Assembly: GCA_947629345.1 (NCBI GenBank)
Contig: CANRDK010000005.1
Coordinates: forward strand, 1-33,759
DNA from: an uncultured Clostridia bacterium
GTDB taxonomy: Bacteria > Bacillota > Clostridia > Christensenellales > Borkfalkiaceae
Length of the DNA stretch: 33,759 nt
Reading direction: 5' to 3'
The notes beneath the pieces were generated by a model. That model made no database searches and was not told the origin of the DNA. It saw nothing but the letters and a program-made list of their open reading frames with translations. Each line of letters starts with the position of its first letter. Positions within the stretch are counted from its first letter, which is position 1. Shown here piece by piece: positions 487-29,465 of the stretch. The translations under genes and the position numbers were made by a program.

Positions 487-519
487 TTCAAAAAAAGACG
501 CCGTGAGGCGTCTTTTTTT
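487..519. terminator. Rho-independent terminator (potentially bidirectional) after the M18 gene
   Basis: aaaaaaGACGCCgtgaGGCGTCttttttt. Confidence 0.85.
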
Positions 520-533
520 GCACATATGTTGCA

Positions 534-1934
534 TTATTTCATAAAGGCCAAGAAGGCTTTGTAGTTGCTGTAGAGGTCTGCCTTGGAGATGACTTCCCAC
601 GGCGCGTGCATCGAGACGACGGGCACACCCAAATCGACGGTGTCGATATTCAGATTGGCCACAAACTTTGCCACCGTGCCGCCGCCGCCGATGTCCACCT
701 TGCCGAGTTCTGCCGTCTGCCAGACGACGCCCTCCTCAGCAAACATCTTTCTGACTTCGCCGATGAATTCCGCATTTGCGTCGTTGCTGCCGCTCTTGCC
801 GCGTGCACCTGTGAACTTGCACATGGCCGTCCCGCAGGAGAGCATGGCCGCGTTCATCTTCTCGTACACGCCCGCAAAGTTGGGGTCGAATGCCGCCGTA
901 ACGTCAGAGGAGAGGCACTTCGATGCCGCTCTCACCCTTCTGAAATTGGCCCCGAGGGCAAGGGAGATCTCCTCCATGAGGTCCTCATAGACCTTGGACT
1001 GAATGCCCGTGTTGCCCTCGCTGCCGATCTCTTCCTTGTCCACAAGCATGGCAAGGACGGTGTGGGGAGTTTCGTTGTTGAGAACGGCCGTCAGCGCGGG
1101 ATAGGCACACACCCTGTCGTCATGGCCGTAGGCGCCGATGAGGGCCCTGTCGAACCCGACGTCGCGGGCGGGGAAAGCGGGCACGGCGGAGAGCTCCGCA
1201 GAGAGGAAATCTTCCTCCGTAATGCCGTATTTCTCGTGAAGAATGTTCAAGACGTTGAGCTTGATCTTGCCATCGACGTCCTCATCGGGATAGGGCATGC
1301 CGCCGACGAGCACGTTGAGCTGTTCCCCCTCGATGAGCTTATTGGCGCTGCCGCTCATCTGTTCGCCGCCGAGGTGGGGGAGAAGGTCGTTGATATAGAA
1401 CACGGGGTCCTTGGGATCCTCGCCGACCCTGACCGTGACCTTGGTGCCGTCCTTCAGAATGACGACGCCGTGAAGGGCAAGGGGAATTGCCGTCCACTGG
1501 TACTTTTTGATGCCGCCGTAGTAATGGGTCTTGAGAAAGGCCATGCCGCTGTCCTCATAGAGAGGATTTTGCTTGATATCCACGCGGGGGGCGTCGATAT
1601 GCGAGGCGATGATGCGCATGCCGTCCTCTTCGAGGGGAAGGGTCCCGACGCGGAACACGACAACGGATTTGCCGCGGTTGATAAAATATTTCTTGTCGCC
1701 TGCCTTGAGGGGATCGCCGAAATGATATTCGGAGAAGCCCGCCTTTTCGGCCGCCTGAACGGCGTAATCGGTGGCCTCGCGCTCCGTCTTTGCGGCGTCG
1801 AGGAAGGATTTGTAGCCCTCGGCATAGATGAAGATGGCCTTTTTCTCGGCCTTGTCGGCCTGTTCATAGTAATTTTGCTTCTTGTAGGAAAGCTCCTTTT
1901 GGAGAGCCTTGCCCTTGCTCTTTTTGTCTGACAT
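534..1934 (-). CDS. M18 family aminopeptidase (aspartyl aminopeptidase-like)
   Basis: 466-aa ORF with M18-like motifs (IIASHIDAPRVDIK, GAYGHDDRVCAYPAL, LVDKEEIGSEGNTG, SMHAPWEVISKAD); promoter upstream and hairpin terminator downstream. Confidence 0.93.
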   Translation of the reverse strand: MSDKKSKGKALQKELSYKKQNYYEQADKAEKKAIFIYAEGYKSFLDAAKTEREATDYAVQAAEKAGFSEYHFGDPLKAGDKKYFINRGKSVVVFRVGTLPLEEDGMRIIASHIDAPRVDIKQNPLYEDSGMAFLKTHYYGGIKKYQWTAIPLALHGVVILKDGTKVTVRVGEDPKDPVFYINDLLPHLGGEQMSGSANKLIEGEQLNVLVGGMPYPDEDVDGKIKLNVLNILHEKYGITEEDFLSAELSAVPAFPARDVGFDRALIGAYGHDDRVCAYPALTAVLNNETPHTVLAMLVDKEEIGSEGNTGIQSKVYEDLMEEISLALGANFRRVRAASKCLSSDVTAAFDPNFAGVYEKMNAAMLSCGTAMCKFTGARGKSGSNDANAEFIGEVRKMFAEEGVVWQTAELGKVDIGGGGTVAKFVANLNIDTVDLGVPVVSMHAPWEVISKADLYSNYKAFLAFMK

Positions 1935-2281: not shown

Positions 2282-2638
2282 TCACACATTGGTGCCGTCG
2301 CCGAAGCCAAGACTGATGAGGATTGCGCGGTTGACGCGCGACATGGTGGAGGGGGGAAGTTCCCCGATCCGCGCCATCAACCTCTTTTTGTCGATGGTAC
2401 GGATCTGCTCCAAAAGAATAACGCTGTCCCGCGCGAGGCCGAATGCGGACGGCAGTTCGATATGGGTGGGGAGCCGCGCCTTGTGGATCTTGCTCGTCAC
2501 TGCGGCCGCGATCACGGTGGGGGAGTATTTGTTGCCCGTATCGTTCTGCACGACGAGCACGGGACGCACGCCGCCCTGTTCGCTGCCCACAACGGGACTC
2601 AGGTCCGCATAATAAAGTTCTCCGCGTTTGACGATCAT
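2282..2638 (-). CDS. MazF/PemK/NdoA-type endoribonuclease toxin
   Basis: 118 aa; [33 protein letters not shown]...[13 protein letters not shown] is typical of NdoA/MazF. Confidence 0.92.
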
Positions 2639-8284: not shown

Positions 8285-8757
8285 GCGCTCATTCCTCTTG
8301 CCCGCCCCCTGCGTAAGGGGGCGGGGTAGGGGTGGGGGTACGCCCTCGAACGCAGTCTGCACGGGAGCCTGTTCCCTCATTCCGAGCCCCGAAGGGGCGA
8401 GAGAATCTCGCTCTAAGAACGGAAGTCCGTAAGTTTACGAGATCCGCTCGCTTCGCTACTTCGCGCCAAGGACGGCGCTCGTGCCGCGCTTAGACACAAA
8501 TAGAACGCGCGCGGGGCGGGATGAGGGTGGGCGGCCCGAACGGAGTCCCCTTGCTTCCCCTTGTAGGGGAAGTACCCCGAACGGAGTCCCCTTGCTTCCC
8601 CTTGTAGGGGAAGTACCCCGAACGGAGTCCCCTTGCTTCCCCTTGTAGGGGAAGTACCCCGAAGGGGGGATAGGGTTCAAAAACCCCTCAGTCACTGTGT
8701 GACAGCTCCCCTAAGAGGGGAGCCAAGGGACCCCCGCCACAATTTTTAATTTTATTC
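8285..8757. repeat. Composite repeat block between smc and ftsY, with a 3 x 41-bp tandem array
   Basis: cttgcccgccccctgcgtaagggggcggggtagggg; 41-bp units starting at 8535, 8576 and 8617. Confidence 0.88.
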
Positions 8758-8784
8758 TAAATCGCAACATAAGTGTGAAATTTT

Positions 8785-12186: not shown

Positions 12187-12294
12187 ATGAGCGTCCGTAG
12201 GTTCAATGAGATGCTTACGCTCCCCCCCAAAATCGCAACATATGTTGCAAAAAATCAGTCAAAAATAAAAAATTATCATAGAGAGGTAACAACA

Positions 12295-12596: not shown

Positions 12597-12632
12597 CGAT
12601 GAATTCTTTTCAAGGGCGAAAAGAATTCATCG
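12597..12632 (+). other. Perfect 15-bp stem hairpin downstream of rpsP, no T-tract
   Basis: CGATGAATTCTTTTC-aagggc-GAAAAGAATTCATCG. Confidence 0.8.
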
Positions 12633-12789
12633 AGGGGTTAAGTGCCGTATTCCACAATTGCTTTAACGGCCGACAGCTCCGTTTTTCACAGGGGCAGGAA
12701 GCCGCAGGTATGCGGCAAATTGAGTGCGCTGCCGCAAAAGCGTGGTTTTGCTTCGCGCAGTGATTTGGAACGGTCCGTTGAAGCACGGG

Positions 12790-12995
12790 GTCCCCTCGGC
12801 TCCCCTTGTAGGGGAGCTGGCGAGCGAAGCGAGACTGAGGGGTTGGAACCCTATCCCCCGCTGCGCGGGTACTTCCCCTACAAGGGGAAGCAAGGGGGGC
12901 TGCGCGGGTACTTCCCCTACAAGGGGAAGCAAGGGGGCTTCGTTTATGGGATCCTTCGTTGCGCTCTGAATGACGCGGCGGGGACACAGACTTCA
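12790..12995. repeat. Hairpin repeat block between rpsP and khpA, with a 2 x 39-bp tandem
   Basis: ctgcgcgggtacttcccctacaaggggaagcaaggggg starting at 12861 and 12900. Confidence 0.85.
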
Positions 12996-13007
12996 TAAGG
13001 AGAAATT

Positions 13008-19171: not shown

Positions 19172-19199
19172 ATTTGAAAAATTTGCAACTTATGTAACG

Positions 19200-19226
19200 A
19201 AAAAGCGCCTCTCGGCGCTTTTTTGA
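19200..19226 (+). terminator. Rho-independent terminator after rseP
   Basis: aaaaaGCGCCtctcGGCGCtttttt. Confidence 0.88.
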
Positions 19227-19599: not shown

Positions 19600-20691
19600 T
19601 CACTCCTCTTCCTTCTTTTCGGCGGGGCGGAACTTTCTCGCCTGTTTCACAAAGGCCTTGGAGCTGAACACGACGATCCCGACCGCGATCGCAATGGCGA
19701 TGTCAACGAACACGAAGGAGTTATAGGTCAAACTGTACACCCACGCTCCCACGGGGTCTGCGCCGAGGTCGGCAAAGGCAAATACGCCCGAGAGAATGTG
19801 CGCAAGGTAGCGGAAAGCGCTTCCGACGACGGCGCCGAGCGCAAATTGCACCTGCGGGAGCTTTTCAAGCGGTTTGAAGTCCGCAAACATGCCCGCAACG
19901 CCGATGCCCGCAAAGGCGATGGGATAGTCCAAGAGGAACTGTGCGGGATGGATAATGTAGGGGTCCTGCACCGCCTGCAAAACGCCGTAGATGAGCCCCG
20001 CAAACACGCCCTTTCTCGTGCCGAACATGTAGGAATAGATCATGAGGGGGAGAAGGGACGCGAGGGTCACCGAACCGCCCTCGGGGAGCTTGAAAAATCT
20101 CACATAGGAGAGTGCAAAGCTCATGGCAATGCAGACGCCCGCGTAGGAAATGGACTTGCTGTCGAATCCCTTTTTGTCCTTTTTTCCGAAGAAGAGAGCA
20201 AAGAGGGCGATCACAACGATGAGCACGGCGGCGCAGACGTACAAAAGAGCGTTGTCCGTAGCCGTAATGCCGCTGTCCTGCCCCGCGCCATAGACGCCGA
20301 AGCAGACGAGAGTGGCAACTGCCGCGGCCCCGACGATACATGCAAGCACGGTGACGACCGTTTTGGAGCGGTTGAAGAAGAGGGTGACTGCGCTTCCCGC
20401 GATCGCAATGATGAGAATGAGGATGGGCACGAAGAGCATGGTCACGATCCCGTCGTCAACAAAGGTCCAGATGAGGAAAAGCATGGCGACCGCACAGGCG
20501 TATGCAACTGCGGAAATCGAAGCATATCTGAGGAATTTTTGCCGCTGTTCACCCTTCAGCAGCAGTGCGCCGAGCACAAAACCGATGGCGAGCAGGACGG
20601 TCAGCCAAAACGCAACGCCCCGCGCAATGTTGAGGGGGGAGTCGAACAGGACGGGATACCAAACGGTATCCAAGATGGAATTGAGAAACAT
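19600..20691 (-). CDS. thiT: ThiT-type ECF thiamine transporter substrate-binding subunit with extra N-terminal membrane region
   Basis: C-terminal half SYAGVCIAMSFALSYVRFFKLPEGGSVTLASLLPLMIYSYMFGTRKGVFAGLIYGVLQAVQDPYIIHPAQFLLDYPIAFAGIG; ATG at 20691 with GGAGG upstream; TPP riboswitch upstream. Confidence 0.9.
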   Translation of the reverse strand: MFLNSILDTVWYPVLFDSPLNIARGVAFWLTVLLAIGFVLGALLLKGEQRQKFLRYASISAVAYACAVAMLFLIWTFVDDGIVTMLFVPILILIIAIAGSAVTLFFNRSKTVVTVLACIVGAAAVATLVCFGVYGAGQDSGITATDNALLYVCAAVLIVVIALFALFFGKKDKKGFDSKSISYAGVCIAMSFALSYVRFFKLPEGGSVTLASLLPLMIYSYMFGTRKGVFAGLIYGVLQAVQDPYIIHPAQFLLDYPIAFAGIGVAGMFADFKPLEKLPQVQFALGAVVGSAFRYLAHILSGVFAFADLGADPVGAWVYSLTYNSFVFVDIAIAIAVGIVVFSSKAFVKQARKFRPAEKKEEE

Positions 20692-21170: not shown

Positions 21171-21220
21171 TTCGATCCCACAGTAGTAAAACGCACATAA
21201 GTCGCATAAAATAAGCACAT

Positions 21221-23303: not shown

Positions 23304-24895
23304 GTAAACGGAAACGGGACGACAGTCCCGATCTCGGTCAGATGACGACGCAGCAAAAAATGCAATATATGCACGATAATACGGACGTCAGAAAGCCTCC
23401 GAGAGCCAAAAAGGATCCGCGGAAAAAACACAGGATGATCGCGAGCATCGGCATCTATGTCCTCAGCTATCTGCTTCTCCTCGCGGAAATTTTCATCATG
23501 GTCGTTTTGAATCAGCCCGTCGGCTGGGACATTTGGTTCAAAGAGAATGTTCCCTCCGTGCTCTTTCTCATCGTCAGCGTTTTCCTGCTCTTCGTCATCA
23601 TCTTTTTCTATTTCTTCTTCGAGGACAGGGAGACCCTGCTGAGCATTTCAAACACCTTCCTCATCTTTGCCCTGACGCTCCTCTGCTCGGCGGTGTGCTA
23701 TCTCTTCGGCAGATATGTCTCCCCCTATATCCGTCCGTTTGCGCTCTTTTCGCTGCTCATCCTGTTCCTTTTCAACAGGCGGAAGGCAATCTTTTTGAAC
23801 TTTATTTTCACTTTCTTGACGTTCGTCATCGATATGTACACGAACAACAACGTGGGTGCGGCGAACGAGGTCTACTCCACGCTCATGCTCAGTTTTGCGA
23901 GCGGGACGCTCGCCGTATTCTTTGCGGGGAACGTCAAAACGAGGTCGGGCCTTGTGTTTACGGGGGTCATTCTTGCCCTTCCCACGAGCATCGTCGTCGC
24001 CCTCCTCAACGTCGCCTCCATGGGAGACCCGTGGCTGTACCTCACGAATATCGGCTACGGCATGCTCGGGAGTATCATTTCGGCCGTGCTTGCCCTTGCC
24101 CTTCTCCCCGTATTTGAGGCCATCTTCAACAAATTGACGGTGTTCCGCCTCAGGGAACTCACGAGCACCAATGCTCCCCTTCTCAACAGGCTCAAGAAGG
24201 AGGCCCCGGGCACCTTCAACCATTCGCTCATCGTTGCCCAGCTCTCCGAGGCATGCGCCGTTGCCATCGGCGAAAATGCGGAACTCGCCCGTGCCGCGGC
24301 CTACTATCACGACGTCGGCAAACTCAAGGACCCGCAGTGCTTCACCGAGAACCAGTCCGATTACAACGTTCACAACGAACTCACCCCCGAGCTCTCGGCA
24401 GACATCATCCGCTCCCATGCGCAGGACGGGTATCAACTTCTCATCTATAATCATCTGCCCAAGGCCATTGCGGACGTCGCCCTCGAGCACCACGGCACCC
24501 TTCCCATCAAGTACTTCTTCAACAAGGCCTTCCGCATCACGGGCGGCGAGGCGAAGATCGCGAACTATTCCTACTTCGGGCCCACGCCGCAGACAAAGAT
24601 CTCCGCGATCGTCATGATCGCAGACGGCGCAGAGGCCGCCACCCGTGCCCTGAAAGACCATTCCCCCGAAAACGTTGAAAAGACCGTCCGCACCATCATC
24701 GAGGAGAGAATGGACCTCGGGCAGTTTGCGGCGTGCGATATCACGATGCGGGACCTCACCACCATCAAGCAGACCTTGGTCGAAACGCTCTCGGGCGTTC
24801 ACCATCACCGCGTGGAATACCCTTCCATCCGCATCAAGCGGGACATGTCCGTCGATGAAAAGGCAGAAAAACAGGACAAGCAGGACAAGAAATGA
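23300..24895 (+). CDS. 7TM-HD family (PgpH/YqfF-like) putative c-di-AMP phosphodiesterase lacking the N-terminal extracellular domain
   Basis: Multi-TM region followed by HD domain PGTFNHSLIVAQLSEACA...AAAYYHDVGKL...HAQDGYQLL...ALEHHGT; between phoH and ybeY. Confidence 0.9.
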   Translation: MSKRKRDDSPDLGQMTTQQKMQYMHDNTDVRKPPRAKKDPRKKHRMIASIGIYVLSYLLLLAEIFIMVVLNQPVGWDIWFKENVPSVLFLIVSVFLLFVIIFFYFFFEDRETLLSISNTFLIFALTLLCSAVCYLFGRYVSPYIRPFALFSLLILFLFNRRKAIFLNFIFTFLTFVIDMYTNNNVGAANEVYSTLMLSFASGTLAVFFAGNVKTRSGLVFTGVILALPTSIVVALLNVASMGDPWLYLTNIGYGMLGSIISAVLALALLPVFEAIFNKLTVFRLRELTSTNAPLLNRLKKEAPGTFNHSLIVAQLSEACAVAIGENAELARAAAYYHDVGKLKDPQCFTENQSDYNVHNELTPELSADIIRSHAQDGYQLLIYNHLPKAIADVALEHHGTLPIKYFFNKAFRITGGEAKIANYSYFGPTPQTKISAIVMIADGAEAATRALKDHSPENVEKTVRTIIEERMDLGQFAACDITMRDLTTIKQTLVETLSGVHHHRVEYPSIRIKRDMSVDEKAEKQDKQDKK

Positions 24896-27650: not shown

Positions 27651-28181
27651 ATGGACCTTTTTGCCGCACTGCGGTTTACAGAGGATGAGAATCTTACGGG
27701 GCGCGTGTATTGGTATCTCGCGCCCTTTTCCGTAAAGGAGGGGGAGAGGGTGCTCGCGCCCGTCGGCCCGCACGACAAGCTCCAATGTGCCCGCGTGGAG
27801 CGGGTGGAGAACTTTTCGGAGGCGGAGGCGCCCTATCCGCCCGTCCTCTGCAAGAGCGTGCTCTTAAGGTACGGCGACAGAGAGGTGAAAGAGGGCGTTT
27901 TCGACCTCGGCGGCGTGCGCTACGACGACAGACATTACACGCGGCCGCGGCGCATTCTCATCGCAAAGAGCGAGGCGGCGGCAGAGGGCCTTTCCATCAA
28001 AAAATGCAACATATGTGACGAAAACTGGCTCTATGAAGCGGCGGAGAAGGGAACTTGCATCCTGCTTTTCGGCGAAGATGTGAGGGAGGCGGGCGAGCTG
28101 ATTTTGCGCATCGTGCGCGGGGAGGACCCCGACGACGTCCCGCCCTCCGTTCTCCTCGCCCTGCGTGAAAAACTGCGGTAG
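27651..28181 (+). CDS. Hypothetical protein (N-terminus faintly resembles the PriA N-terminal domain)
   Basis: 176-aa ORF with its own promoter; aaaggag then ATG at 27651; GRVYWYLAPFSVKEGERVLAPVG. Confidence 0.75.
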   Translation: MDLFAALRFTEDENLTGRVYWYLAPFSVKEGERVLAPVGPHDKLQCARVERVENFSEAEAPYPPVLCKSVLLRYGDREVKEGVFDLGGVRYDDRHYTRPRRILIAKSEAAAEGLSIKKCNICDENWLYEAAEKGTCILLFGEDVREAGELILRIVRGEDPDDVPPSVLLALREKLR

Positions 28182-28475: not shown

Positions 28476-29465
28476 ATGAAAAAACACATCCTATTGATCG
28501 CAACGGGCGGGACGATCGCCTCAAAGAACGAGGGGAACGGCCTCGCGCCCGCCATTTCCTCCGAGGGCATTCTCTCCGAGGTGCCCGAAGTCAGGGAGAT
28601 CTGCAACGTTGACGCCGTCCAGCTCTTCAATCTCGACAGCACCAACGTCTACGCCCGCCACTGGCTCGAGATCGCCGCTCTCATCCAAAAAAATTACAAC
28701 TTATATGACGGTTTCGTCATTACACACGGCACAGACACCCTTGCCTACACGGCCGCCGCGCTCTCCTATCTCATACAGGATTCCCCCAAGCCCATCGTGC
28801 TGACGGGGTCGCAGAAGTCGGTGTATCTGCGCGATACGGACGCGAGGCAGAACCTGCTCGACGCCTTTTGCTACTGTGCCGACGGCGGGTCGTTCGGCGT
28901 GGAGGTCGTGTTCGACGGCAAGGTCATCTTGGGCACCCGCGCCAAAAAGACGCGGACGCGCAGCTACAATGCCTTTGCGAGCATCGACTATCCCGAGATC
29001 GCCATCATCCGCGAGGGCATTCCATATTATTATATAAGGGAGGAAAAGCCCGCCGCGCCGAAGTTCTATATAAAGCTCGAGGAACGGGTATTTGTGCTGA
29101 AGATGACCCCCGGGCTCTCCGCCGATATCTTCGACTACTGCGATACGCACACCGAGGGGCTCATCATCGAATCCTTCGGCTCGGGCGGCCTGCCGAGATA
29201 TGAGGACGACATGTTTTTCACGCGGCTCAAGCGGTATTTGGACGCGGGGAAGGTGGCCGTGCTCACCACGCAGGTGGAACGGGAGGGCAGCGCGCTCGAC
29301 AAGTACGAGGTGGGAAGGCGGCTGCTCGCGTGCGGCAATGTGCTCGAGGCGCGGAGCATGACCCTCGAGGCGACGCTCACCAAGCTCATGTGGCTGCTCG
29401 GGAATTTCCCGCGGGAGGAGATCCCCACGCTCTTCTCCCGCCCCATCCGCAAGGATATTTTTTGA
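28476..29465 (+). CDS. ansA: Type I L-asparaginase
   Basis: MKKHILLIATGGTIASKNEGNGLAPA..., VITHGTDTLAYTAAALSYLIQDSPKPIVLTGSQ; acggagg upstream of the start. Confidence 0.95.
   Translation: MKKHILLIATGGTIASKNEGNGLAPAISSEGILSEVPEVREICNVDAVQLFNLDSTNVYARHWLEIAALIQKNYNLYDGFVITHGTDTLAYTAAALSYLIQDSPKPIVLTGSQKSVYLRDTDARQNLLDAFCYCADGGSFGVEVVFDGKVILGTRAKKTRTRSYNAFASIDYPEIAIIREGIPYYYIREEKPAAPKFYIKLEERVFVLKMTPGLSADIFDYCDTHTEGLIIESFGSGGLPRYEDDMFFTRLKRYLDAGKVAVLTTQVEREGSALDKYEVGRRLLACGNVLEARSMTLEATLTKLMWLLGNFPREEIPTLFSRPIRKDIF

Follow-up and report, generated by a model that had tools for sequence, protein, structure and literature searches.

Which function lies behind the short palindrome-like motif that recurs along this stretch of an uncultured Clostridia genome? 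The window (the whole stretch of 33,759 nucleotides that was analysed) is contig C5 of the source draft genome G000 (1.92 Mb, 171 contigs). An earlier note on this DNA had listed six copies, and all of them were found in the window at the positions and on the strands claimed. With up to two mismatches allowed, the window contains 10 matches to the motif, compared with a mean of 1.83 in shuffled sequences; none of 100 shuffles reached 10. In the whole genome, 60 matches with at most one mismatch (19 exact, 41 with one mismatch) stand against 12 for the reversed pattern. The recurring motif is thus real, and its genome-wide frequency lies above the expectation from composition. An Rfam search of the window gave no match. 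A profile search added five weaker sites; a symmetrised profile was dropped because it drifted into A/T-rich sequence. The sites are listed with their profile scores and, where applicable, their counterparts in a related genome (G031):

12227-12255, forward strand: site in the rpsP leader; core GCAACATATGTTGC at 12235-12248, a perfect palindrome; 35.9 bits; G031 homologue at C8:15471 (32.5 bits)
512-540, reverse strand: site between the stop codon of the M18 aminopeptidase gene and its terminator; core GCAACATATGTG at 521-532; 33.3 bits; not conserved in G031
8756-8784, forward strand: site directly 5' of the ftsY start codon; core GCAACATAAGTG at 8764-8775; 32.2 bits; G031 homologue at C8:19012 (29.7 bits)
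19177-19205, forward strand: site between the rseP stop codon and the terminator; core GCAACTTATGTA at 19185-19196; 32.4 bits; near-identical site in G031 at C8:7595
21185-21213, reverse strand: site before yqfC; core GCGACTTATGTG at 21194-21205; 23.6 bits; same 12-mer in the sister genome G043 (C5:3298), absent in G031
27998-28026, forward strand: site within the gene for a 176-aa hypothetical protein; core GCAACATATGTG at 28006-28017; 37.9 bits
26050-26078, forward strand: weaker site within era; 21.0 bits; G031 counterpart at C8:321 (24.3 bits)
23354-23382, forward strand: weaker site, close to the 5' end of a 531-aa gene; 22.7 bits; G031 counterpart position scores 13.5 bits
10604-10632, forward strand: weak candidate within a ylxM-like gene; 22.4 bits; not conserved in G031, may be chance
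20511-20539, forward strand: weak candidate within a thiamine-transporter-like gene; 20.5 bits; not conserved in G031, may be chance
28688-28716, forward strand: weak candidate within the asparaginase gene; 25.7 bits; by codon comparison, coding constraint may explain it

The window also carries a MazF/PemK-type toxin gene near plsX (2282-2638, reverse strand).

In full, the element measures about 27-29 bp and consists of an A/T tract, the near-palindrome GCAACATATGTKGC and a second A/T tract. In an alignment of 60 sites, A/T tracts of 5-6 bp flank the core on both sides, intragenic copies included; the central TpA of the dyad is invariant. The dyad can be written as GCAACAT and ATGTKGC on the two sides of its centre, and the full form as about AAAAWTYGCAACWTATGTKNCRAWTTTT. 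The 14-bp palindrome at 12235-12248 is the symmetrical variant, and a more frequent variant, GCAACATATGTGCGA, is one T shorter in its right half. The core GCAACATATGTTGC in the rpsP leader is a perfect palindrome, as the earlier note stated; the conserved element itself is longer and includes the A/T flanks. Sites are used in both orientations.

To follow the sites between species, those of G000 were transferred to G031 via protein alignments, and a site counted as recurring if the corresponding place in G031 had a site scoring 15 bits or more. Twenty-four of 47 placeable sites recur in this way, compared with 1 of 187 control windows. Recurrence was found for 14 of 29 intragenic sites, 7 of 12 sites past stop codons and 3 of 6 sites before starts. 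The ftsY, rpsP-leader and rseP sites are among those that recur. The site within the 176-aa gene is conserved at the codon level in G043 and G032; in G026 one core nucleotide is changed, and in G045, G052 and G031 the site is replaced. Recurrence at homologous positions within and between genes, together with the codon-level identity of an intragenic site across diverged species, indicates that selection acts on the DNA rather than on the protein. A methyltransferase or a restriction system could account for a motif that is long, specific and limited to one clade. Restriction sites, however, are usually avoided and not conserved, and about 29 bp with A/T flanks far exceeds the length of such sites; we regard this explanation as hardly credible.

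The earlier note had suggested a protein-binding, methylation or RNA-processing site. Protein binding is the best reading of the imperfect dyad, the A/T flanks, the use of both orientations and the interspecies conservation even inside genes. An element acting at the RNA level, i.e. a part of bidirectional terminators or a processing site, is suggested by some copies past stop codons, e.g. AAAAAATCGGCACATATGTGCCGATTTTT, that form perfect hairpins and carry tracts of A and T. Yet most copies are intragenic, in both orientations, and are conserved there, and many copies precede a separate terminator. An RNA-level role is therefore disfavoured and seems very improbable to us.

With a coding-potential gene caller, 49 of the 75 sites that scored 20 bits or more in G000 were intragenic, 17 lay nearest a gene 3' end, mostly 9-20 nt past the stop codon, and 8 lay nearest a start; the coding fraction of this genome is 0.83. 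In G031 the corresponding numbers were 34, 19 and 5. According to these counts, noncoding DNA, chiefly the stretch past stop codons, is about two-fold enriched in sites, yet most sites are intragenic; the ratios are approximate since part of the site set came from one core pattern. The term "boundary motif", by which most copies were held to sit at gene starts or between stop codon and terminator, is thus only partly apt: the excess past stop codons is there, but about two thirds of the sites are intragenic and few precede starts. Likewise, a position bias exists, past stop codons, but it differs from the one proposed, and the main effect is found on the scale of the chromosome (see below).

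These numbers also bear on the possibility that the motif serves as the operator for a transcription factor controlling many genes, LexA-like or another global regulator. Its dyad symmetry would fit an operator, as would the conservation of the sites upstream of ftsY and in the rpsP leader, and the perfect-palindrome form has AACATATGTT in common with the Bacillus LexA-type box, CGAACATATGTTCG. Against this, only 8 sites are nearest a start, conservation is equally good inside genes and past stop codons as before starts, and avoidance of the terminus would not be expected. A large regulon is accordingly an unlikely explanation.

The motif is expanded in one clade within a single genus. Seven species of this genus gave 126, 123, 120, 92, 71, 49 and 40 profile matches; as the best 150 candidates per genome were scored, the highest of these counts may be at least the values given, and palindromic sites can count on both strands. 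The next relative, G051, gave 7 matches and ten other congeners 1-3 each, and most other congeners are near chance level. A search for the exact 12-mer across 121 genomes indicated the same clade. A few sites are shared at the same places by G051 and G121, and several of these loci also bear sites in the clade; a sparse older set of sites thus probably predates the expansion. The host group consists of uncultured Clostridia from the gut, and Candidatus Gallimonas merdae is moderately close (68% identity in SMC). The limitation to a clade means that the origin of such a system could be traced among close relatives.

A clade-limited expansion would also be expected of a selfish or recombination-related short element, such as an uptake sequence, an iterated palindrome of the HIP1 type or a very small spreading repeat that persists. 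The placement past stop codons and within terminator stems is reminiscent of DNA uptake sequences, and avoidance of the terminus is common to other intergenic repeats. However, DNA uptake sequences should be present in very many, mostly exact copies, whereas the motif has broadly spread variants with few exact copies (19, against 41 with one mismatch) and amounts to only about 100 copies. Moreover, single intragenic sites are conserved between diverged species. On balance a selfish element appears rather unlikely.

The regional pattern was first noticed in G000 and then tested in G031. In G000, contigs C4, C5, C9 and C11 are rich in sites, and C1, C2, C3, C6, C8 and C10 contain about as many as the controls; reversed-sequence controls were near zero. 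Contamination of the bin by the site-free contigs was ruled out by the core genes that C1, C2 and C8 carry (polA, dxs, leuS and thrS are among those on site-free contigs); polA on C1 is single-copy and shows the expected kinship. When mapped onto G031 and the 20-contig genome G070, C1, C2 and C8 correspond to a low-GC region around the flip from positive to negative GC skew (G070 C4, about 94 kb; G031 C6, about 10 kb), i. e. the terminus. The opposite flip adjoins parB and a perfect parS (G070 C1, G031 C10). Origin and terminus were thus placed by parS beside parB, GC-skew flips and gene strand in two relatives with rearranged gene order, and the genomes are drafts.

In G031, only 2 of 58 sites fall into the terminus-linked contigs C1, C5, C6 and C7, which make up 416 of the 1189 kb read, and 56 lie outside (binomial p 7.4e-9). 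A Mann-Whitney test on 20-kb bins gave the much weaker p of 1.7e-4, because the sites cluster. C5 is tied to the terminus with less certainty than the other three; C1, C6 and C7 alone contain 1 of 58 sites (p 3.7e-7).

The motif is not alone in avoiding the terminus, since other intergenic repeats of G031 are likewise rare in the terminus contigs. Abundant intergenic repeats of the CCCCTCAGTC, CAGGATGAGC and GGGGAAGTAC families occur on G000 C4 and C5, in the window for example at 12610-12996 and 8456-8760, and hardly any are found on the site-free contigs of that genome.

GC skew, gene strand and parS agree on a replication origin beside parB in G070 and G031. dnaA was given up as an origin marker, as GC skew and parS put the origin about 170 kb away from it in G070 (dnaA at C1:175502, parS at C1:4748). 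In G031, dnaA (C4:42152) is on another contig than parS (C10:17637).

The simplest reading of a dyad with conserved A/T flanks that is conserved within and between genes, is present in about 100 copies and is missing around the terminus is that the motif provides sites for a dimeric, domain-marking protein. Probably it marks a chromosome domain, like the cell-division or chromosome-organising sites of other bacteria. A possible mechanism is as follows. A dimeric protein would bind the double-stranded site of about 27-29 bp, consisting of A/T tract, dyad and A/T tract. Some 100 or more such sites would be spread over the origin-side chromosome, inside genes and past stop codons, where their cost is lowest, with the terminus region kept free of them. 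The bound protein would then mark the origin-side DNA as a single domain and thereby tie the organisation or segregation of the chromosome or the positioning of the septum to it, in a manner resembling Noc and its binding sites (NBS) in Bacillus. We consider the chances of this complete scheme, including an organising or occlusion function, to be about even.

As for the binder, a candidate was a 142-aa protein with two XRE domains, in whose gene a site lies over the start codon in G051. It was rejected: orthologues lack the site, the repeat in its own promoter is another one, and the protein is distributed differently from the motif. The protein belongs to a small family with two tandem XRE-type helix-turn-helix domains (L369:1514-1942 in G051; L378, C3:38753 in G000; L380, C1:32459 in G031). 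Many of the double-XRE genes are preceded by a conserved repeat, AAACAGGACATAAT, and mobility of the family is suggested by interspecies identities that do not follow kinship. Genes with several sites are ordinary or uncharacterised, none with signs of DNA binding, and the proteins near parB include no obvious binder. In a rough consensus scan of G031, none of the TetR proteins could be tied to the motif; a 358-aa protein of this genome (L241:7919-8995, contig C14) is a DUF1893 domain fused to a TetR-type regulator. A conserved, well-defined and domain-restricted site would be a direct bait for finding its protein.

A search for other repeats of the terminus contigs brought up a second palindrome, CATAGTACTATG followed by TCAGACATAATA. 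In G031 the terminus contigs have 25 copies of it and the remaining contigs one (overlaps merged; reversed controls 2 and 1), and the two motifs jointly split the contigs of this genome almost completely (Fisher p 6e-18). In G000 there are 11 copies on C1, C2, C6 and C8 (e.g. L170/L171) and none elsewhere; the intergenic ones are mostly directly past stop codons. G070, with copies on C4 and C6, shows only a weak contrast (8 against 2, with 5 control matches). Most genomes of the genus, as well as G100 and G101 from other families, contain many copies of its core.

The motif may bear on how Clostridia that have neither Noc nor MatP organise and protect their chromosomes during division. Among known systems, the binding motifs of RacA (ram) and RefZ in Bacillus are dispersed inverted repeats of the origin region that serve chromosome capture in sporulation; the sites described here extend over far more of the chromosome. 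ParB/parS shares with them palindromic segregation sites on the origin side, but the canonical parS, TGTTTCACGTGAAACA, differs in sequence and was found separately beside parB (G031 C10:17637, G070 C1:4748).

The closest parallel in layout is Noc of B. subtilis, with about 70 palindromic sites dispersed over most of the chromosome and absent from the terminus region (PMC4331003); SlmA-binding sites in Escherichia coli are dispersed in an NBS-like distribution (PMC4331003). The motif likewise forms dispersed palindromic putative binding sites that are missing from the terminus as inferred from draft relatives. It differs in that the NBS sequence is unlike it, and each of the seven site-bearing genomes has one ParB_N protein and no second ParB-family protein. 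This single protein, together with the canonical parS beside parB in the relatives read, argues against a Noc paralogue, and Noc was thereby ruled out as the binder.

MatP/matS of E. coli is similar in using domain-specific dispersed palindromes, but matS is confined to the terminus, which the motif avoids, and a search for MatP (PF06303) in eight genomes of relatives gave no match over the cut-off. MatP/matS was thus ruled out for the motif. The second palindrome, CATAGTACTATG, does have a matS-like terminus distribution and is possibly a matS analogue. Tentatively, and with more doubt than for the origin-side motif, one may imagine that two complementary sets of palindromes share out the chromosome, with GCAACATATGTKGC serving the origin side in a single clade and CATAGTACTATGTCAGACATAATA serving the terminus region across most of the genus. 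With a separate DNA-binding protein for each set, the palindromes would act as an address code of two letters that labels chromosome domains in the absence of Noc and MatP; thanks to the reciprocal terminus palindrome, Hi-C could put this notion of two marked domains to the test.
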